Shown here: positions 22,617-35,222 of the stretch, in pieces | How positions within the stretch are numbered: the stretch's first letter is position 1 | Layout of the letters: every line of letters starts with the position of its first letter | Assembly (NCBI GenBank): GCA_958450365.1 | Contig: CAUEEP010000912.1 | Span: forward strand, 424,501-488,500 | Source: Mesorhabditis belari | Lineage: Eukaryota; Nematoda; Chromadorea; Rhabditida; Rhabditidae | DNA: 64,000 nt | Reading direction: 5' to 3' | Translations under genes and position numbers: made by a program | Notes under the pieces: generated by a model | The model's input: the letters and a program-made list of their open reading frames with translations, nothing else | Told to the model about the DNA's origin: nothing | The model's database searches: none

Positions 22617-23396
22617 CACGGTAAAATACTTTAAGCACAAAAGGTTTTTCAGTAAGCAATTTTTAGATTTAGATCTTCTTTGAAACTTTGTTTCCCTTTT
22701 TATATTCGCCCGAAAAGAGTATCAATGATTATATACAATGCCAAATGATATCTTTTTGTCAATTTTTCAAATCAGATCAATCATTTTCGTTTACTGAAAC
22801 AAATCTTTTTAGACTTTTTACGGATCACAGAAAAATTTGAGCATTTTAAAGCTCGCAAAAATGTTTCAGCTGATTAAATATGTTTTACAAAAAATACGGA
22901 AAAGTCTACCAACTTTCAAGTTGCCAATCTAATAGAAAGTTCGGAGACAAGTTAATCAAATTTGCTTAAGCCTTTCTTAAATTCGATAATATAGAACTTT
23001 TATTTAGAGAAGTTGAATTCAATTGGCGTATTAAATATGTTTTATAGAAAATACGAAAAAATGTACTCACTTTCAAGTTGGCAATCTAATAATCCTAAAA
23101 GTTTAGTGAAAAGAAGCTTTTATCTGGTCAGCTACAGCAAAGTCCGCAGTCTGCAGATGTAAGACCAAATTTTATCAATTTACAACAGTTTGTATAGCAA
23201 AGGATTTCTGTAAAAGACAATTTTCTTGTGTTTCTTTTCATCGAAGCAAAGAAATCCGATGAAAACATTAAAAGTTTCCTTTCTGTCTAGTATAAAACTC
23301 TTTCTAGATTAAAATCTGGCGAAAAATCGGGTAAAGGCTTTGGAATGGAAAACCTGATTCTAAATAGTTTATTGATCCTAATTGCAAGCACAAAGG
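22617..23396. other. Intergenic, AT-rich
   Basis: Between family A copy 2 and the left arm of the large inverted repeat. It holds only short repeats (TACTCACTTTCAAGTTGGCA-like pieces at 22910 and 23065) and a 70-bp direct repeat unit (AAAGGCTTTGGAATGGAAAA) that recurs at 23525. No gene seen. Confidence 0.4.
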
Positions 23397-23768
23397 GGCC
23401 TTTCAGGCCGGATTTTTCCGAACCAAACATAACTCCTTCCTTACGTGTATCCCTACGTGTATGTGTGTATGATGAAAGGATACGCATAGCGAAGGAGTCG
23501 TCTTTGATTCAAAGAAATCGGGTAAAGGCTTTGGAATGGAAAACCTGACTCTAAATAGTTTATCGATCCTAATCGCAAGCACAAAGGACAAAAAATTTAC
23601 AACATGAAAAATTAACCTTTAAAATACATTACAAATCCATAGTGAACAAAATACAGCTTTCAACTGAAAATCAGGAATAAATTTTGTGCACTATCATATG
23701 TCATCACCAAAAAAACCTCCAATATGAGCCAGCTTCCGGGGCCGGGCACTAGTCGAACCATGTAGATT

Positions 23769-25261
23769 CTAAAACAATTTTGTAATAAATAGTTTCATCG
23801 AACGTAATCCATATATTAGAGAAATCCATGCTAAAACATACCCAATACTGCCTGGTGCAGAAGCGTCTACCCTAGCATCAACGTCAAGCTGAACGACGTC
23901 CCCATTTGCTCTTTTCAAACGAATCTCGTGATAGTTGGAAGCATTCGCAATCAGTTTAACACCTGACAATCCAAGTAAGTTGCGCAAGAACTAAAAATTG
24001 AACATTTTATCGGGAAAAGTTCGAATTGCTTGAAGGACTATCTAGGCAATCTAGACTAGAATAGTTGAGTCGACCTTGCGGTCCTTTTAAGAAATGCATC
24101 CAAATTATCTTTAGCAAAATAAAAGCGTTAAAAGAGCTCACATTTTGGAGTTCTGCTTTCCCACCAACTGCTCGAAGGTTAATTTCATCAATTTGACGCT
24201 CTGAAGTGTACCAGTTTTGGATCATCCTTAAAACCCCATTAAGAGTGCATCCAGGTCTTTGAAATGCACCGTTATAACTCAAAAGACATAAATTCGACAA
24301 GATCTAAACAATTAATATTATGCGGAGTAAGCCTCGTAGCAAAAATTATTCCTTGACCGTTAAATCAAAACAAACCGTGTCATTTAATGGATCAACCATG
24401 GCCTTGCCTCCAACATCAAACCGAACGTTTTGCAATCCAACCGCATGATTATTGGTGAAAAAATCGCTCGTAACAGGAACATTTTGTTTGTCTCCATTCA
24501 CCTTCATCAGCCTAATTTTGATTTGTTCAATACAAACTTACAAAAATAGTTAGCTGGCGCGTAGGCCTTGTACGGCAAAATACATCCATGAATCTTTCCG
24601 GCGAAAGAGTCGTCTCTTCGATATCACAATATAATTCCTCGCATCGGAATAATTCCTTGCAATTTGCAAACACTTCCCAATCGACGTCCCACTTAAAGAC
24701 ACATTTTAAGTACTAGAAAATACCAGGGAACACTAACCAAAACGAGTCTCTTGAAAGTCACACGCTTTGCCAAATACTCCAAATGGTGCATCAAATTAGT
24801 TGGATCGATTGTTTCCTTATATGAGGTGATTGTTCCAAAGCGATAGGAAAACTACAACCTACGTTTTTGTAACTAACGCAACAATCCTTACCTCGTTCCT
24901 AAAAACACCAAGCCAATTGAAGCAAACGCGAGGAAGTCTTGCTCTGCGCAGCTCGACCCTTCTATAGCAATCCCTTGAGAGTAGTCGAACAGTGCTAAAG
25001 CAAAGATTAGAATTAGAAAACGCAGGCATGAAACTTTTCGATGACGCGTGCAGGAAGTTTCTCAATCACCGCATAGAAAAGGACATCGGGAAGTGTTTCG
25101 AGGAAGTTGACAGAAGAGGTCGGCTGAAACAAAACTGGTACAAAACGTACATTGGGAAGCAATCACAAACTACGATATTTAAAGCGAATTATAGGCTAAA
25201 TGCTTACATTCAGTTGCTCCTTCCTAAGGCTTTCCATGATCTCTGCTGGGTTTATCATCAT
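23769..25261 (-). CDS. F-box-like protein gene, left-arm copy
   Basis: Mirror copy of the right-arm gene at 33355-34850: start MMINPAEIMESLRKEQLN, an F-box-like segment (FLEALPDVLFYAVIEKLPAR), LPRVCFNWLGVFRNE, and later exons with GCTLNGVLRMIQNWYTSERQ and FLRNLLGLSGVKLIANASNY. Compared with the other copy it has NVRFDVGGKAMV where the right has NVCFRNGRGKAMV. Coding blocks are better conserved than introns. F-box proteins recruit substrates to SCF ubiquitin ligases, and nematodes have large fast-evolving F-box families. At least two exon junctions do not close in phase in my reading, so the true structure differs or the gene is decayed. Confidence 0.5.
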
Positions 25262-26228
25262 TGCAAACTACCGTTCTAAAAAAAGCTTGTATAGAAGGGA
25301 CGAGCAAAGAGTTAGATAACTAAAAGAAACGAGATCGTGAGAACAAAGATGAAAAATGGGCAGAGCAAAACCAAAAAGGGTAGTAATCCACGGTTATAAG
25401 GCTTTTGTTTGAGAATAGAGTATTCAATCAAACATCAAAAAGATTCATGTATATTTTTCGCATTAAAGATTAAAAAATTCATGTTATAAAAAGGCGTGCG
25501 GTAAAAGCCCGAGGCATATAAGAATGTTGAACTAAACTGTTCTTAGTCAATTTCTGAATAAACTTGGTAAACCTAAACAATGTACATGTGGAACATCAAA
25601 TCATACTTGAATGAAAAAGCAAGACCTGTATGAAAAAACTTAAGTTGGCCTTAAACTCAAGGATCAAGTGGAACTGTTCTCAACAATTAGATCAACTCGA
25701 CAATTTTGCAAAAATCTTCTGAAAATTATAGATTTAATGAAAATTTTGATTTTAAGAATGCACAATCAACCTTTCGTTTTGGTCCCTCGACCGGTTCTCC
25801 ATTTCATTCACCATTTCTCTCTCGAAATCAAAAGTGTTGAAGCGAAAGCTGTTGTTATTCGTTGACACTCAACGTTCTTGCCGATAATGGATAATATTGT
25901 CTTTTAGTGTACACCGAACTTTTTCCACCCAACCAACGTGCCTTTTCTTCTACGTTTGCGCCAGTTGTGGTCAAATTTATTTGAATGAATATTAAACGAA
26001 ATCAGAAGAAAAATTGATGATTGATAAAATGATTTCCGACTAAACACAACAACTTTTCAAAATTGCTTCACAAAGGTAGGCTCTGGTTAACCCAAATCAA
26101 AAAAGCTTGTTATTTGCATAGACCATAAAGACACCTCATCGATATCGTCTTCAGTGAAACTTCTTGCAAAAAGCGTGTTTGTCAGCAGATCCAAAACAGT
26201 AGCTACAATTTGATTGAGAGCCGATAGT

Positions 26229-26421
26229 AGAGCAAGTGTATCCTAAACAGATATTGATTGACGAGTTTGCTAATGAACAATGCCTGGGCATACGCGATCA
26301 AGTAAAACGCTTGGCCATATCAGCAGCAATGACGTCGGCAGCAACCCAATTTTTCACCATAATTGCTTCGATGAATCTAAAAAATGACATGAGCCTCATC
26401 CAGCTAGCGCGCGAAAAACGG
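26229..26421 (+). CDS. Conserved short frame in left arm (unknown)
   Basis: A frame reading YPKQILIDEFANEQCLGIRD, then KRLAISAAMTSAATQFFTII, is repeated on the opposite strand of the right arm (32510-32325). Only a few, mostly conservative, changes separate the copies (Ala/Val, Gln/Glu, Ile/Met). That pattern suggests a coding exon running toward the core and cut off at the arm edge. No family recognised. Confidence 0.4.
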
Positions 26422-26499
26422 CCAAAAAAGGAGGAAGGGGGGAGGATTTTCGGAAATTTTATTGAGTTTGGGGGAGTTTGGGGGGGCCAAAAAATTTAA

Positions 26500-27015
26500 A
26501 ATAAAAAAAATAAGGATTTAAAATTTTGGGGGGTATTCGAATGACCGCACGAGAGAATGGTGACGAACAAAAAGCACCCAAAATAGCGTTCGCTTTCGAT
26601 GGCTCAACTTTTTCTTCCACTAAATACAATTCATTATAACAGTTCAAGCCTCATTATTCTTTATTAAAAAACGACTCACCAGCCCAGGACGCTAAGTCGA
26701 TCGCTGCTTGCTGGAGAATTTGTTGTGCTGCTTCGATATTCTTCAAGACGATGTGGAAGTCGATCAGTCGCACAGCTTCATCTTTGTTGACCTTCCATTC
26801 AGTTGTCAGCCTGCTTAGCTTACTAAATCGTAAAGTTTAAATAGCTGGATCGCAAACACCAACCGTATTTTTTCACCCCTTTCTTGTACAACCATTCTCC
26901 CGAAGCAGCGCGAACAGTCGACCAGTTGAACCTCCCGGTCGAGCGGCGACCAAATCGGTGAGCATCTTGTCGTATGTGATTCCTTGACCCGTTTCGAGTT
27001 TTCTTAGACTGCTTT
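26500..27015 (-). pseudogene. Partial minus-strand gene truncated at the arm boundary
   Basis: Three frames on the minus strand join in phase: one with CSPIWSPLDREVQLVDCSRC then FGRMVVQERGEKIR; one with SRLTTEWKVNKDEAVRLIDF and IEAAQQILQQAAIDLASWA; and one with VEEKVEPSKANAILGAFCSS then PFSRAVIRIP. The last runs out in low-complexity sequence next to the inverted-repeat arm. A CxxC pair is the only motif seen. The 5' end is cut by the inverted-repeat element at 27018. It is probably a gene fragment interrupted by rearrangement on both sides; its identity is unknown. Confidence 0.45.
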
Positions 27016-27017
27016 CA

Positions 27018-27703
27018 TCGTGGTCACTGATTACATTTGGCTGGGGCTACCACGCAGAAATTTTGAATGCCTTTTAGAAAGTCAAAGTCGCAATGTTTCA
27101 ATTAAGCTGAAAGCTGGTTTTAATTTCTATCAGAGTACGGGTAGCTCCTCTTCAAGCAACGCCGACTGTAGCCTTTACTGCAGCTGGGCTACGGTAGCTA
27201 AACTGATATAGATTGCAGACCCAAAATTTCAGCTAACCGCTGACAAAATGTGATCCAATGAGACAAAATATTTGCGACAATGGGGCGTGGATTTTCTGTT
27301 GTTGTCTTCTGTGCTACCTGTAAGTCGACAAAACCATAAAAATAGCGATCTAGGATTTCCTTTTAAATGAATAGTTTTAAAACAGTAACAGATTATTTGC
27401 TTGTAACTGTTTCAATTCAAGCTATTTACATTGGAATGGGCAAATTTGAATTTAACGACCAGATAAAAAGACATCACTGAACCTTTCAGTCTTCAAAATA
27501 TTCAATTGCTATCCAAACATGGTTGGTTTTTTATATCCTTCTTATTTTCTCATTTTGGCAGTTGCCTTATAAATTGATTTTCACTGTTTATCTTAACAAG
27601 TCTAGTCTCGATATAACGACTCTCGATTCAACGACTTTGACTTTCTAAAAGGCATTCAAAATTTCTGCGTGGCAGCCCCAGCCAAATGTAATCAGTGACC
27701 ACG
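27018..27703. repeat. Inverted-repeat element, arms about 68 bp
   Basis: GTGGTCACTGATTACATTTG to AGAAAGTCAAAGTCG at 27018-27088 is the reverse complement of 27637-27703. The interior is AT-rich and non-coding. It lies just upstream of the membrane/RNase H gene. Confidence 0.8.
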
Positions 27704-27998
27704 TCAGTACAACTCAGGGCAGCTACGCAGAGAATTTGGGGCACATTTTAGGGTCCTTATATCGAAATTTTCGCTCCAGAGCGAGTCGTTATATCGAGTG
27801 TGTTGTGTATTTTGTTAGAAGTGCTTGTAGTTGCTAAATACCAGTACGTTACTTAAAGTTCCCTAGGAATTTAACCGCTGTTTTTTGTGTAGATGCAAAA
27901 TTGTAGCCTTTTTGCTCAAATTTAATCACGACAATTTTTTATCTAAAGCTAAAGTTGTTATAAAGTTAACTTTAACTCTTATTAAAGTTTTTTTGCAG

Positions 27999-30900
27999 CT
28001 CGTTTATCAGTTGCACCTTCTCGGAGTGTTGTTGATCTTGACAACAAATGAAGCTAGTGCTGCTCAGAAGGTAAGTATTTATCGTGTTATTCTAAAGTGT
28101 TGGTAAATATGTTTTTATTCCTTTTTAATTTAGGAATGCACGAAAGGATTTCCGTTCGCTTGTTTTGTTCATCTGTGGGAAAACGAAAATAATGCTGGAA
28201 AAGAGTTCGTTCACGCTTTCAACACTGAAACATTCTTCGAGGCTTATGTAAGTTTTACTGACTTTAAAAACCTCTAATTTTTTAACCAGTAAACTATTCT
28301 TTGACAGAGTATGATGTGTTTCTTTTATTTAGTGCAAAGATGTCGAGAAATGCAATTCGGATTGCCGCACTACCGGAGCAATAGTCAACAAATCTGATGT
28401 CAGAAACAAGGGTTTCGTATTCAGGTGCAACCCGAGGAACCTTTTTTGTGTTGGTTTTTTTCAAATTATCGATTTTTAATCGGTGAATATTTATGTTTTT
28501 AGAACGAAAAGAAGAACGTGGAGTGCATCCCTATTAGAAAGGTGTACCGATTGTCTGAAAAGGGCGTTGCCTCTCAATCACAACCCGCACCCCAAGAACC
28601 CATTGAGAAAACGAGTAAGGAAACCAAGACAACAACGCAAGAATCGCTACCAGCGCTACCAGACGTCAATCGGCAATTTGGTGACTGGATTTTTTAAATT
28701 TGTTAGAGCTTGGGTTTTAGCTCTGCATAAACGGGATAATAGAAGAAAAAGGAAAGTGCCACCTGCACCCGTTCCAAGCAATGGCGATTCATTTGTGCCT
28801 AACCTGGTCGAAATTCAGGTGACTTTTTTTGTCTGTTTGTTACCATATTTACATTTTTAGACAATTGTGCTCCCGATTTGTCGCCGAGAGGACACGGAGA
28901 AAGATTGCATGGCATTGACGAGTGGACGTTTCTGCACCATCAAGGAGGCGGTTATAAGATACCCCTCGCACCAATATCTGCCTTGGAGTGACATAAAAGA
29001 CATTTGTACAGTTGTCGAATCTCCACTGGGAGGTGAAAGTCCGAAGTGAGTGTTTTAAATGCTATGAACATCTTAGAATTTGGCTTTAAAGAATAAAATT
29101 TTGGTAGCCAGCAATAGCTTTTAACTTTAAAGTAGACTTTTAAAGGTTTTTATCGCAAACCTAATTGTAATGTTTTAGATGGTTTGCCGAACACGTGGAA
29201 AATAAAAAGGAAAACCTGGGATCAATGGAAGTTGTATGGGAATACACCGGTTTTCCTTTTGACATAGTCACCAACAAGAGCTCACCGTTTTTGGCACATC
29301 GATTCGATTATGGGACAAAGGTAGCTTAACCTCCTGATTTTAGCACAACTTATGTAGCTGTTATTATAAGTTTTCTTTTTAGAAATGCAGAAAATATGCA
29401 GAGAATACGGAGAACTGTCTGCCGCTTCCAATATGTGATGATGGAAAGCATTTCATCACACACCGCATCCGAATGAGGAACGTTGTGAATCCAAATGACG
29501 GTTACTATGTTGAACGAGGAGAATCCGAGTGCGAAAGGGCATGCGAAGCTTGGGAGTGAGTTTAACGTTTTAACTTACCAGTTAATCACTTACGTTTTGG
29601 GGAGTCGACGCTCGATAATCCATGCCGTATCTTGGACATCGAACATTTGCCACTTCATCGCCAGAACAGTCCACCATATGCCAAGTTTGCAACCCTTGCC
29701 GCTAACCTGCAGAGGCGTAAATTTGGTAAGCGATTTGTGATATAACACTTGATGACCTCTTTTTAGGTTTGACTGGACGCAACGAGATGCCCCATATGCC
29801 TGAAGTCACCACTGAAAAGGCGCCACTTGCCAGACGTGACGCTGCGAACATTCCCACTCGTTATTATGGTCGTCCTATTGATTTGGAAACTGTGAATGTG
29901 AGTTATTTTTATAAGTGTTCGTAAACTAGTGGTTTCGATTTAGGAGGAGGATCGCGCAGCTATAGAATCCAACTACTGGCTCTCGACGAATAGAAACGCG
30001 TTTTATAAGAAATACGGCGACAAGATCAAACTCGCAAAAGCATCAATGTGCACTTCCGATTCGAAAGAGACTGTTTGTTTGAAATTATGTTTAAATTTTA
30101 TTTTCATTTAGTTCTGCCGTTCTCCTCCAACAACTCCAAATCCAAATGCGAACAACACGTGCCATAATTCCACAACGACCGCAAAGGTGGAACAAGAAAG
30201 CAGCAGCTTGCCGTGGTGGACGATTCTGCTAAGTGAATTCGGCGTTTTTGTTTGTTAAACATCCTTTTTTTTAGTCGTGCTTGCTGGTCTTACGGTTACT
30301 TGGTTCGTTGTCCTTCTCGTGTGGTGGAAAGGCTGCTTTGGATTGTCTGAAGGTTTGTTAATTTTTCTCCTCTAGTTTGATTGTTCTCTTTGATAATCGT
30401 TCTTTTCGCTATTATCAATCTTCTTTAGAGAGAAAGACCACAAGAGGGGGGAAAGAAAAAAGGAAAATTTTTCCCTCCCGCCAGGCAAGGAAAAAAAGCA
30501 AGTCCTGGGCAAAAGGAACTACTTTTACCGTCTCTTCTCTATCTGGTGACTCCTCGCATTCAACTCCTCCAGCTCAAGACCGAACTTCTGAAACTAAAGT
30601 AAAATCTTATTTTATTCAAAGGCCTATTTCATTTGTTTAGTTTGTTGTTCGGAACTTGGAAGACTGCTTTTCCCAAGCCATATCTAAGGTAACTTTATAA
30701 AATAGGAAGATGGGAATCGATCTGAAAAATAAAGTCTATAATTAAAAGGGGTTTTATCAATTAATGGTCAATTTTCTTATTTTTAGACTTTGCAAGAGCG
30801 GGCAGAGCTTTGGGAAAAGAAGAAGGACGAGAAAGAATTGGCTGAACGTTTTGGTGGGTTTATTTGTTTTTAGATTTAAACAATTCTAAACTCATGAAGT

Positions 30901-32097
30901 GCTAGTGAATTATAAACTATTTTGTTTGAATGATTTGATATTTTGCTGGTACAATGGCTATTTATTTGTTAATTTTACAGGTTTTCCGACGAAATGGCGA
31001 AGCAAAGACTGTCATCAGCAATTCAACAAGGGCAACATCTATATTTACACCGATGGTTCACGGGCCAATGATAAAACAGGAACGACTGGGATCGGAACGT
31101 TTTATGGAATAGGCCACCCACTGAATTTGTAAGTGTTTTTAACTATAGTAGTGAACAGTAAAACTAGAAAACGACTTTAAATGGTAACTGAATATAGGAG
31201 TTTTTTTAGGAAATAAAATATTGATTGATGTTTGAATGATCTAGTAAAAAGATTTTTAAATACAGTTTTCAAAAATTTTTTTGAGTTTAGAGGTCTAAAC
31301 ATCGGGCCCACGGATCACGCATTTTTTGGGGAATTGCTAGCGATAAATGTCGCTCTGCATCGTCTACTGCTATGGGGAGGATTTGGGTAAGCATTCTTAC
31401 TTGTATAATAGTAATAAATCTTAACAATTTTCCCTATAAGAAGATTTTTGATATTTTAGAAATCGAGATGTCATACTTCGTACCGATTGTGTGAATGTAA
31501 TCATCGCATTGAAGAATGAGGAAGACAGGAAGCTAAATCAGCCTCTGATCGACAAAGACCAGCCGCTTGGCTGGACTTTAAACAGGGACGAAAAAAAACC
31601 GTTGGTCTTTACATTTGGATTTGTTTATAATTTGCGTTTAGGGTGAAGAATCTACATTTCCTTTTGAAACGATTCCCCAAAGTCACCATGCAATGGGTTC
31701 CCAGCCACGTTGGAGATGCAGGAAACGATCATGTAATGCTTTTGAATATGTTCTTTAAGAAATAAATTTATAATTCTTTCTTATTTTTAGGCCGACGCAC
31801 TTGCTCACTATGGTAGGTGTGGTTCTGTAAAGCACTGGAAGCCAGACGTGGATGACGTAAAGAAGAGGGAGCTGGGTAGCAAGTTCTGGCATTCCAGAAA
31901 TGACACGAACATTACATTCGGTAAATTCTTAAATGTTTTTTTGATTTATTTACTGTCTATTTTTAGAAAATCGAAACGTCGACCAGACCAGTCGACCAGA
32001 AGAAGTTGCTTACCCTGAAGATGGTGCGATTCAAAAGATTCTGAAAAAGCAAGAAATTCAAATTGATATTATTCGCGAAATTAATAAGAAGCAATGA
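27999..32097 (+). CDS. Secreted/type-I membrane protein fused to an RNase H domain
   Basis: Twenty-two exons (27999-28070, 28134-28247, 28333-28449, 28503-28680, 28721-28818, 28861-29045, 29179-29320, 29383-29555, 29605-29725, 29767-29897, 29944-30072, 30112-30232, 30275-30352, 30429-30598, 30641-30688, 30787-30853, 30981-31128, 31291-31386, 31460-31600, 31642-31732, 31791-31920, 31967-32097), about 893 codons. All junctions close except 29555/29605 (off by one). Order: hydrophobic signal-like exon (LHLLGVLLILTTNEASA), Cys-rich ectodomain, TM (about 520-545), basic tail (KEKRK, RQARKKSKS), then RNase H. The nuclease has Asp in YTDGS, Glu in FFGELLAI, Asp in LRTDC, His in PSHVGD and Asp in HADALAHYG, the full DEDD+H set of type-1 RNase H. 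Exons from 30429 to 31600 hold no Met codon, which argues against a separate RNase H gene. The start codon was not located. Confidence 0.75.
30981..31920 (+). other. RNase H1-type catalytic domain region
   Basis: Domain-level mark inside the fusion gene (five exons). TGIGTFYGIGHPLNL resembles the GIGVYFGPGHPLN turn of cellular eukaryotic RNase H1 more than retroelement RNase H. The known role of the family is hydrolysis of RNA in RNA:DNA hybrids using two metal ions. Here the domain would face the cytoplasm if the upstream helix acts as a membrane anchor. Confidence 0.8.
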
Positions 32098-32103
32098 AAT
32101 AAA
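32098..32103 (+). terminator. AATAAA poly(A) signal overlapping the stop region
   Basis: Directly after the TGA stop of the fusion gene, followed by T-rich DNA. It supports 32097 as the gene end. Confidence 0.55.
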
Positions 32104-32324
32104 TTTTTATTATATTTTAAAATTTTTTATCATCAACAATCACGCGTGAAAAGAAATCGTGTAAATATGGATTTCCAGCCGTATCACTGAAATTGTCACA
32201 CTTTGTGCCCTCGCAAACGCATCCTTTCTGGCGCACTCATTCATTCTTGATCAGGTGAGTGTGCCAGAGAGCGTGTTTCTCTCAACTGATGCTCGCAAAG
32301 TCTGCGCCAGTCTGTCGTTTTTGA

Positions 32325-32510
32325 TCGTTTTTCGCGCGCTAGCTGGATGAGGCTGATGTCATTTTTTAGATTCATCGAAGCAATCATGGTGAAAAATTGG
32401 GTTGCTGCCGACGTCATTGCTGCTGATATGGCCAAGCGTTTTACTTCATCGCGTATGCCCAGGCATTGTTCATTAACAAACTCGTCAATCAATATCTGTT
32501 TAGGATACAC
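32325..32510 (-). CDS. Conserved short frame in right arm (unknown)
   Basis: Opposite-strand partner of the frame at 26229-26421, with the same length and few substitutions. It runs toward the core and loses similarity exactly at the arm edge, so both copies are likely truncated pieces of one original gene. Confidence 0.4.
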
Positions 32511-35222
32511 TTGCTCTACTATCGGCTCTCAATCAAATTGTAGCTACTGTTTTGGATCTGCTGACAAACACGCTTTTTGCAAGAAGTTTCACTGAAGACG
32601 ATATCGATGAGGTGTCTTTATGGTCTATGCAAATAACAAGCTTTTTTGATTTGGGTTAACCAGAGCCAACCTTTGTGAAGCAATTTTGAAAAGTTGTTGT
32701 GTTTAGTCGGAAATCATTTTATCAATCATCAATTTTTCTTCTGATTTCGTTTAATATTCATTCAAATAAATTTGACCATATACCATAACATATCAAATTT
32801 CTAGCGGCTCTCCTTTTGAAACCTGATCGAAACCGATGCATTTGCATTTTCGTCTTTCACTTTTCCTTGTCTGAAATGAAAATTGAGTTGATTGAATGTC
32901 TTTATTTAACGATTTCCCGAATTTAACTCAATTTCTTCATTCACACATTTCACGACAACATCATAGGGATGCTGATTGTGATTGCGATTGTGTACAAGAG
33001 CTTTCGCTTCAACACCAAATTTCCCGGGGGATAAATCACTTAGTGTTTTTAACTGAAATTTGGATTTCAAACGAGTAGAACCTCCTTTTTCGTATAGACA
33101 CTTTTGATTTCGAGAGAGAAATGGTGAATGAAATGGAGAACCGGTCGAGGGACCAAAACGAAAGGTTGATTGTTGCATTCTTAAAATCAAAATTTTCATT
33201 AAATTTATAATTTTAAGAAGATTTTAAGAAGACTACCCTTTTTGGTTTTGCTCTGCCCATTTTTCATCTTTGTTCTCACGATCTCGTTTCTTTTAGCTAT
33301 CTAACTCTTTGCTCGTCCCTTCTATACAAGCTTTTTTTAGAACGGTAGTTTGCAATGATGATAAACCCAGCCGAGATCATGGAAAGCCTTAGGAAGGAGC
33401 AACTGAATGTAAGCATTTAGCCTATAATTCGCTTTAAATATTGTAGTTTGTGATTGCTTCCCAATGTACGTTTTGTACCAGTTTTGTTTCAGCCGACCTC
33501 TTCTGTCAACTTCCTCGAAGCACTTCCCGATGTCCTTTTCTATGCGGTGATTGAGAAACTTCCTGCACGCGTCATCGAAAAGTTTCATGCCTGCGTTTTC
33601 TAATTCTAATCTTTGCTTTAGCACTGTTCGACTACTCTCAAGGGATTGCTATAGAAGGGTCGAGCTGCGCAGAGCAAGACTTCCTCGCGTTTGTTTCAAT
33701 TGGCTTGATGTTTATAGGAACGAGGTAAGGATTGTTGCGTTAGTTACAGAAACGTAGGTTGTAGTTTTCCTATCGCTTTGGAACAATCATCTCATATGAA
33801 GAAACAATCGATCCAACTAATTTGATGCACCATTTGGAGTATTTGGCAAAGCGTGTGACTTTCAAGAGACTCGTTTTGGTTAGTGTTCCCTGGTGTTTTC
33901 TAGTACTTAAAATGTGTCTTTAAGTGGGACGTCGATTGGGAAGTGTTTGCAAATTGCAAGGAATTATTCCGATGCGAGGAATTATATTGTGATATCGAAG
34001 AGACGACTCTTTCGCCGGAAAGATTCATGGATGTATTTTGCCGTACAAGGCCTACGCACCAGCTAACTATTTTTGTAAGTTTGTATTGAACAAATCAAAA
34101 TTAGCCTGATGAAGGTGAATGGAGACAAACAAAATGTTCCTGTTACGAGCGATTTTTTCACCAATAAGCATGCGGTTGGATTGCAAAATGTTTGCTTTCG
34201 TAATGGAAGAGGCAAGGCCATGGTTGATCCATTAAATGACACGGTTTGTTTTGATTTAACGGTCAAGGAATAATTTTTGCTACGACGCTTACTCCGCATA
34301 ATATTTATTGTTTAGATCTTGTCGAATTTTCGTCTTTTGAGTTTTAACGGTGTATTTCAAAGGCCTGGATGCACTCTTAATGGGGTTTTAAGGATGATGC
34401 AAAACTGGTACACTTCAGAGCGTCAAATTGATGAAATTAACCTTCGAGCAGTTGGTGGGAAAGCAGAACTCCAAAATGTGAGCTCTTTTAACGCTTTTAT
34501 TTTGCTGAAGATAATTTGGATGCATTTCTTAAAAGGACCGCAAGGTCGACTCAACTATTCTAGTCTAGATTGCCTAGATAGTCCTTCAAGCAATTCGAAC
34601 TTTTCCCGATAAAATGTTCAATTTTTAGTTCTTGCGCAACTTACTTGGATTGTCAGGTGTGAAACTGATTGCGAATGCTTACAACTATCATGAGATTCGT
34701 TTGAAAAGAGCAAATGGCGACGTCGTTCAGCTTGACGTTAATGCTAATGTAGACGATTATGCACCAGGCAGTATTGGGTATCTTTTAGCATGGATTTCTC
34801 TAATATATGGATTACGTTCGATGAAACTATTTATTACAAAATTGTTTTAGAATCTACATGGTTCGGCTAGTGCCCGGCCCGGAAGCTGGCTCATATTGGA
34901 GGTTTTTTTGGTGATGGCATATGATAGTGCACAAAATTTATTCCTGATTTTGAGTTGAAAGCTGTATTTTGTTCACTATGGATTTGTAATGTATTTTAAA
35001 GGTTAATTTTTCATGCTGTAAAATTTTTGTCCTTTGTGCTTGCAATTAGGATCAATAAACTATTTAGAATCAGGTTTTCCATTCCAAAGCCTTTACCCGA
35101 TTTCTTTGAATCAAAGACGACTCCTTCGCTATGCGTATCCTTTCATCATACACACATACACGTAGGGATACACGTAAGGAAGGAGTTATGTTTGATTCAG
35201 AAAAATCCGGCCTGAAAGGCCC
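32330..35222. repeat. Right arm of 11.8-kb inverted repeat
   Basis: Pairs with 23397-26424. It ends outside with CCGGCCTGAAAGGCC. No convincing target-site duplication was seen at the outer ends. Confidence 0.92.
33355..34850 (+). CDS. F-box-like protein gene, right-arm copy
   Basis: Readable exons: 33355-33408 (start), about 33493-33587 (F-box-like LPDVLFYAVIEKLPARVIEK), 33622-33724, 33765-33878 (LMHHLEYLAKRVTFKRLVL), 33925-34074 (WDVDWEVFANCKELFRCEEL), about 34105-34254, 34316-34477 and 34629-34850 (stop TAG). Later exons resemble the leucine- and aromatic-rich substrate-binding half of nematode F-box proteins, although I cannot name the associated domain. The junctions into 33622 and 34105 do not close in phase, and one intron would be only 27 nt. 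Either my boundaries are wrong or the gene is damaged. The left-arm copy has the same features, so any damage predates the duplication. Confidence 0.5.

Follow-up and report, generated by a model that had tools for sequence, protein, structure and literature searches.

A candidate membrane-tethered RNase H1-type protein in Mesorhabditis belari and the fast-diverging RNase H family from which it may derive

In the free-living nematode Mesorhabditis belari, positions 27999-32097 of the window (the whole 64,000-nucleotide stretch analysed here, on contig C689 of the 207.6 Mb assembly that was also the genome searched) would constitute, with a probability of roughly 0.55, a single gene encoding a type I single-pass membrane protein. 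This protein would bear a cytosolic RNase H1-type domain able to cut the RNA of hybrids, and would have originated when a receptor-like gene gained an RNase H; more tentatively, it may take part in a genetic conflict. At the level of sequence this reading is supported by the ordered exons, a transmembrane (TM) helix, an active site with all its residues, the absence of any internal ATG, and the presence of the TM, linker and RNase H parts at a second locus. RNase H1 enzymes are normally nuclear, mitochondrial or parts of reverse transcriptases, and the inner face of a membrane, the location predicted here, would be an unusual place for an RNase H. If true, an RNase H1 fixed to the membrane behind an ectodomain would suggest that cells police RNA-DNA hybrids at membranes, and it would make a convenient model for studying how receptors acquire catalytic tails.

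Exon chain and the case for a single gene

The rebuilt exon chain comprises 22 predicted GT-AG exons that lead from a Cys-rich ectodomain through a TM helix and a basic tail into the RNase H domain, and every predicted junction is in phase except one (29555 to 29582), in agreement with the sequence-only reading of this DNA. The features are the following:

23396-26452, minus strand: left arm of an interrupted inverted repeat, with an F-box-named gene (aligned pieces 96-98% complementary)
27519-27521, plus strand: annotated start-codon exon (ATG directly followed by GT), probable but weak; P0001 starts M-LVYQ, and this is the sole such ATG in 27200-27999
27999-28070, plus strand: signal-like hydrophobic exon, LVYQLHLLGVLLILTTNEASA, from its sequence and splice borders
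28134-29555, plus strand: Cys-rich ectodomain exons (28134-28247, 28333-28449, 28503-28680, 28721-28818, 28861-29045, 29179-29320, 29383-29555), with 78% amino acid identity to a paralogue on contig C550
29556-29725, plus strand: stretch of the junction that does not close with the obvious sites; it can close in phase from donor 29501 to 29582, or from 29555 to acceptor 29670
29767-30232, plus strand: stalk exons (29767-29897, 29944-30072, 30112-30232)
30275-30352, plus strand: TM exon with the bulk of the helix, from hydropathy and the AlphaFold helix (512-539); P0001 514-535 starts within 30112-30232
30429-30688, plus strand: linker exons (30429-30598, 30641-30688), basic, Ser-rich, predicted cytosolic from charge; recurring in C154
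30787-31920, plus strand: RNase H exons (30787-30853, 30981-31128, 31291-31386, 31460-31600, 31642-31732, 31791-31920)
31967-32097, plus strand: C-terminal exon and stop, from the exon chain
32294-35222, plus strand: right arm of the interrupted inverted repeat (96-98% complementarity in aligned pieces)

All parts are joined as a single protein in P0001, a public 883-residue M. belari entry ("unnamed protein product, partial") that matches the spliced model built here at 98% across its full length and carries PF00075, the public gene models being perhaps purely automatic. The ATG-only exon at 27519-27521 appears to be the start taken by the annotation and is a candidate start codon. The gene finder used here was trained on the window gene itself and over-extends both ends, and its outer exons were ignored. 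Rfam at gathering thresholds gave no match within the window.

With the obvious sites the 29555-29582 junction is out of phase and, among the options tried, it closes with donor 29501, the choice of the public annotation (P0001), or with acceptor 29670, the choice of the gene finder; an unusual splice would be needed. The sequence at this junction is identical in the window, in its allele on contig C40 and in an inverted C40 copy, which makes a one-off assembly error unlikely, and the C550 paralogue has an AG at the site where the window and both C40 copies lack it. Across window positions 26082-35038 the allele (C40, 301-310 kb) is 98.9% identical, with substitutions at 7 of 2611 exon bases and 4 of 1483 intron bases, so that no faster exon change is seen between alleles, and with indels at 28442, 30219-30221, 31554 and 31590. 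The single-base indels of C40, at the equivalents of 28442, 31554 and 31590, sit in A or T runs (one just 3 long) and may be assembly errors. The public protein of this allele, P0003, joins the TM and RNase H parts, its model ending within the RNase H domain. The inverted copy (L054, C40:295.0-297.6 kb) is an extra one on the other haplotype, in which a partial ectodomain, the TM region and linker pieces were found, with no RNase H match.

These observations bear on the unlikely, if still serious, alternative that the locus is a recent chimera in decay, with the fusion present in DNA and no working protein made. The indels and truncated public model of the C40 allele, the unusual junction common to all three copies examined and the lack of an RNase H match in the inverted copy would fit such decay. 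However, the window copy is open save at that junction and retains a complete active site, the TM and RNase H unit is also open at C154, a second locus described below, and the position of the C40 indels in A/T runs again leaves room for assembly errors.

It is improbable that a receptor gene and an RNase H gene were merely merged by annotation, even though there are stand-alone paralogues of the RNase H half and, at C550, a paralogue of the receptor half without an RNase H. Met residues occur in P0001 at positions 1, 211, 272, 334, 398, 401, 469 and 783, and the Met-free span from 469 to 783 covers the TM helix and three of the four catalytic residues (D663, E702 and D729). A separate RNase H started at an ATG is therefore unlikely, since its next Met would be 783 and it would be left without those three residues. 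Moreover, unspliced back-reading from the linker and RNase H exons met an in-frame stop and no ATG in all six exons tested. The earlier statements that no Met lies between the TM and most of the RNase H domain, and that an independent start is unlikely, were thus borne out, a non-ATG start being conceivable in the window gene. The C154 copy, unlike the window, has a Met just ahead of the first catalytic Asp, so that a separate RNase H start would be possible there. A single predicted gene spanning the TM and RNase H parts is supported because the chain is open and in phase without an internal ATG, because one public protein joins these parts (as do the public models of both alleles) and because exon order and phases, including those of the linker exons, are the same at the diverged second locus.

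RNase H domain, ectodomain and topology

The RNase H part of P0001 matches the Pfam family RNase_H (PF00075) with an E value of 1.2e-14 and 55 bits, against a cut-off of 25.8, and holds the complete set of catalytic residues (D663, E702, D729, D799 and the active-site H789, P0001 numbering), as the sequence-only reading had proposed. All five of these positions are invariant across the six family members aligned, C154 included. The predicted structure shows an RNase H fold, which is a model, and the closest solved relative is human RNase H1, both by sequence and by fold. AlphaFold run with eight sequences gave a usable RNase H domain and no usable ectodomain, and with P0001 alone (mean pLDDT 34.5) only the TM helix was gained. 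The hybrid-binding domain PF01693 was absent from Pfam scans of P0001 and its parts, no reverse transcriptase polymerase family was found among the Pfam matches of P0001 at E up to 10, and the RNase H-like family RVT_3 matched under its cut-off. Elsewhere in the genome PF01693 matches were seen on C570, C19 and C544; three of them lie at C570:755-759 kb, possibly an ordinary RNase H1 locus.

Rapid divergence of the domain away from its active site could suggest that the fold serves in the receptor as a binding module without catalysis, a reading that is quite improbable in view of the four acidic residues and the His being kept in the window and invariant in the six members.

The ectodomain counts 489 residues, with 19 Cys and 4 sequons, and is preceded by the signal-like leader exon (27999-28070), the first Met being uncertain. 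The TM helix corresponds to P0001 514-535 (best 19-residue Kyte-Doolittle mean 2.88), AlphaFold placing a helix at 512-539 within a block of pLDDT 84-92, and a net charge of +10 follows over the next 50 residues; one TM helix with a basic flank is the pattern of a type I single-pass membrane protein. The RNase H side is predicted to be cytosolic from charge alone; of the membrane-tethered, cytoplasm-facing enzyme first envisaged, the single gene with TM and RNase H is supported and the facing is predicted. HMM and structure searches placed the RNase H half; for the ectodomain no convincing relative was found in Pfam to E 10 or in a PDB sequence search to E 1. Rows for TraV and a SwaI-like family in Pfam were weak and under their own cut-offs, and were set aside.

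In the proposed mechanism, a C550-like receptor gene would have acquired its RNase H exons from one gene of an expanded RNase H family, the product being a type I protein with a single TM helix whose RNase H1-type domain faces the cytosol and would there cleave the RNA strand of RNA-DNA hybrids.

Relatives in the genome and divergence of the RNase H exons

A genome search with the TM/linker part considered 16 candidates, of which 14 matched at E up to 1: C689 itself, the C40 allele, the inverted C40 copy, C677/C154/C155, C550, and weak matches on C554 and C548. C677 and C154 are about 99% alike, C155 being known from the TM/linker match alone. In both C677 and C154, DNA resembling window 27424-27645 leads into the stalk and TM exon, the linker and the RNase H, and in C154 the stalk, TM, linker and RNase H parts are open over 11 exons. 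From the stalk onward the junction phases are 1,1,0,0,1,2,2,2,0,1 in the window and 1,1,1,0,0,1,2,2,2,0,1 in C154, where a short additional exon is present. At C677/C154 neither the genome search nor the fetched regions showed an ectodomain match, and this copy may have lost its ectodomain after the fusion. Rates were taken from C154, as the frame of C677 breaks at an exon one base longer than that of C154. The C550 paralogue shares the TM exon of the window gene, and its tail reads to a stop about 70 residues past the TM helix, a stop shown by direct read-through that the gene finder overruns; neither the fetched C550 stretch nor the genome search showed an RNase H match at this locus.

The RNase H query gave 42 matches in the genome, and an array of stand-alone RNase H genes was noted at C690:643-722 kb, in at least eight places. 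Neither this expanded, fast-diverging family nor the receptor paralogue without RNase H had been known to the sequence-only reading. No TM helix was found outside the RNase H domain in 6 paralogues (rough models; no 19-residue mean above 1.6), which represent 6 of 8 further RNase H regions fetched (C690 twice, C701, C24, C652 and C544, with C210 and C708 left out); in C544 the mean reaches 2.0 solely inside the RNase H domain. On C210 and C708 (L063, L064), RNase H-like exons with the first catalytic motif THAS adjoin an F-box/WD40-like gene in rough models. In the stand-alone paralogues C701 and C24 the RNase H exons and their introns correspond to those of the window, as does the intron ahead of exon 30787, similarity beginning near 30733 in blastn and, in a MAFFT alignment with C701, including the donor of that intron. 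Because this intron is shared, the join would lie at or upstream of exon 30641-30688. A receptor gene probably captured one member of the expanded family.

When the window is compared with C154, 421 of 648 RNase H coding positions are identical (65%), against 378 of 416 (91%) in five introns; fourfold sites differ at 18 of 46 and intron bases at 38 of 416 (Fisher p 5e-7). C701 and C24, a pair with no sequence in common with the former, differ at 9 of 77 fourfold sites and 15 of 453 intron bases (p 0.004), and the four cross pairs among these sequences go in the same direction. In the C690/C133 group, where 6 of 11 loci were compared, all with one reference, fourfold differences exceed intron differences in 6 of 6: 8/58 against 13/291 in L031 (p 0.013), 9/48 against 15/288 in L030 (p 0.003), 8/54 against 24/292 in L032 (p 0.13, not significant), and 4-5 of 75 against 14-15 of 291 in L025-L027, with hardly any excess (p 0.56-0.77). 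All these p values are uncorrected and come from small counts and pairs that share sequences. Counting all exon sites, 19% (L031), 22% (L032) and 26% (L030) are different, against 4.5-8.2% in introns. For the family's more diverged pairs, the difference at silent sites is three to four times that in introns. The pairs with this pattern are window 30787-31920 with L058, L061 and L062, and L060 with L030-L032.

The two controls were normal, with 17/111 against 56/471 for the ectodomain of the window and C550 (p 0.34), and 16/82 against 62/388 for the neighbouring F-box-named gene of the window and C677 (p 0.42). The stalk and TM of the window and C154 show few silent changes (2/19). For the RNase H of this last pair dN is 0.36 and introns differ by 9%, while dN/dS (NG86) is about 0.30, with dS possibly inflated. 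The yardsticks disagree: a dN/dS of 0.30 reads as constraint, whereas measured against introns replacement outpaces neutral change. A slower change of introns than of silent sites has also been reported for snake venom enzymes and MHC genes. Possible causes are gene conversion that preserves intron similarity as exons diverge under selection, selection favouring change at all exon sites, as small RNAs targeting spliced messages would impose, and constraint on introns. The cause of such silent-site divergence within a gene family is a separate, testable question. The rde-3 mutants of C. elegans accumulate rnh-1.3 RNA, suggesting that this RNase H gene is subject to RNA silencing (PMC11717427).

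Genetic conflict and comparison with known systems

Because this RNase H family has outpaced its own introns in divergence with its active site intact, the protein may more probably serve a genetic conflict, as a weapon or shield (against hybrids that retroelements or viruses make close to membranes, for instance), than act as a housekeeping enzyme, a weaker inference drawn from the divergence statistics alone. The fullest version is tentative and easier to doubt than to accept: a receptor-type protein with an active cytosolic RNase H1 from an arms-race family, the first membrane-tethered RNase H1, its exons pushed apart even at silent sites while introns stay alike, perhaps by small RNAs reading spliced messages.

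The window gene sits between the large inverted-repeat arms, with F-box-named genes on both sides and also near the C677 copy. The F-box name of P0002 is that of UniRef, Pfam finding no F-box domain in it at E up to 0.1. In M. belari females arise by gynogenesis (PMC7433073). A toxin-antidote pair, with the RNase H membrane protein as toxin and the flanking F-box genes as antidote, recalls the rapidly evolving F-box antidotes of C. tropicalis (PMC12680543), but is very improbable: C677 and the window seem to be copies of a single block, so that the F-box linkage counts once, and both the missing Pfam domain and the gynogenetic origin of females speak against it.

The same fusion was looked for outside M. 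belari and none was found in the protein collection searched, in which the whole protein gave 2 hits, the RNase H region 1 and a six-member alignment 7; this search filters on shared 5-residue words and scores part of the candidates, so distant relatives may escape. The six hits from other sources (P0004-P0009) are RNase H proteins 148-420 residues long, in none of which a 19-residue hydropathy mean exceeds 1.51. Literature searches gave nothing on membrane-bound RNase H or on RNase H in Mesorhabditis. The sequence itself is already public as an unnamed entry; its architecture and recurrence seem undescribed within those searches.

Among known systems, C. elegans RNH-1.3 is a nematode protein with a predicted RNase H1 domain, with no TM fusion mentioned in the portion of PMC11717427 covering it. 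The C550 protein of M. belari shares the 78% identical ectodomain and the same TM exon, and differs in its short tail without an RNase H match. The RNase H of reverse transcriptases has the same fold, whereas the M. belari protein has no polymerase match, matches it more weakly in sequence than RNase H1, and is encoded by a multi-exon gene. Human RNASEH1 (PDB 2qkb, 2qk9) shares the fold, the D-E-D-D and His residues and the GHPLN stretch, at 25% identity over 144 residues; in contrast to it, the M. belari protein has no hybrid-binding domain match and carries its RNase H behind a TM helix and an ectodomain.
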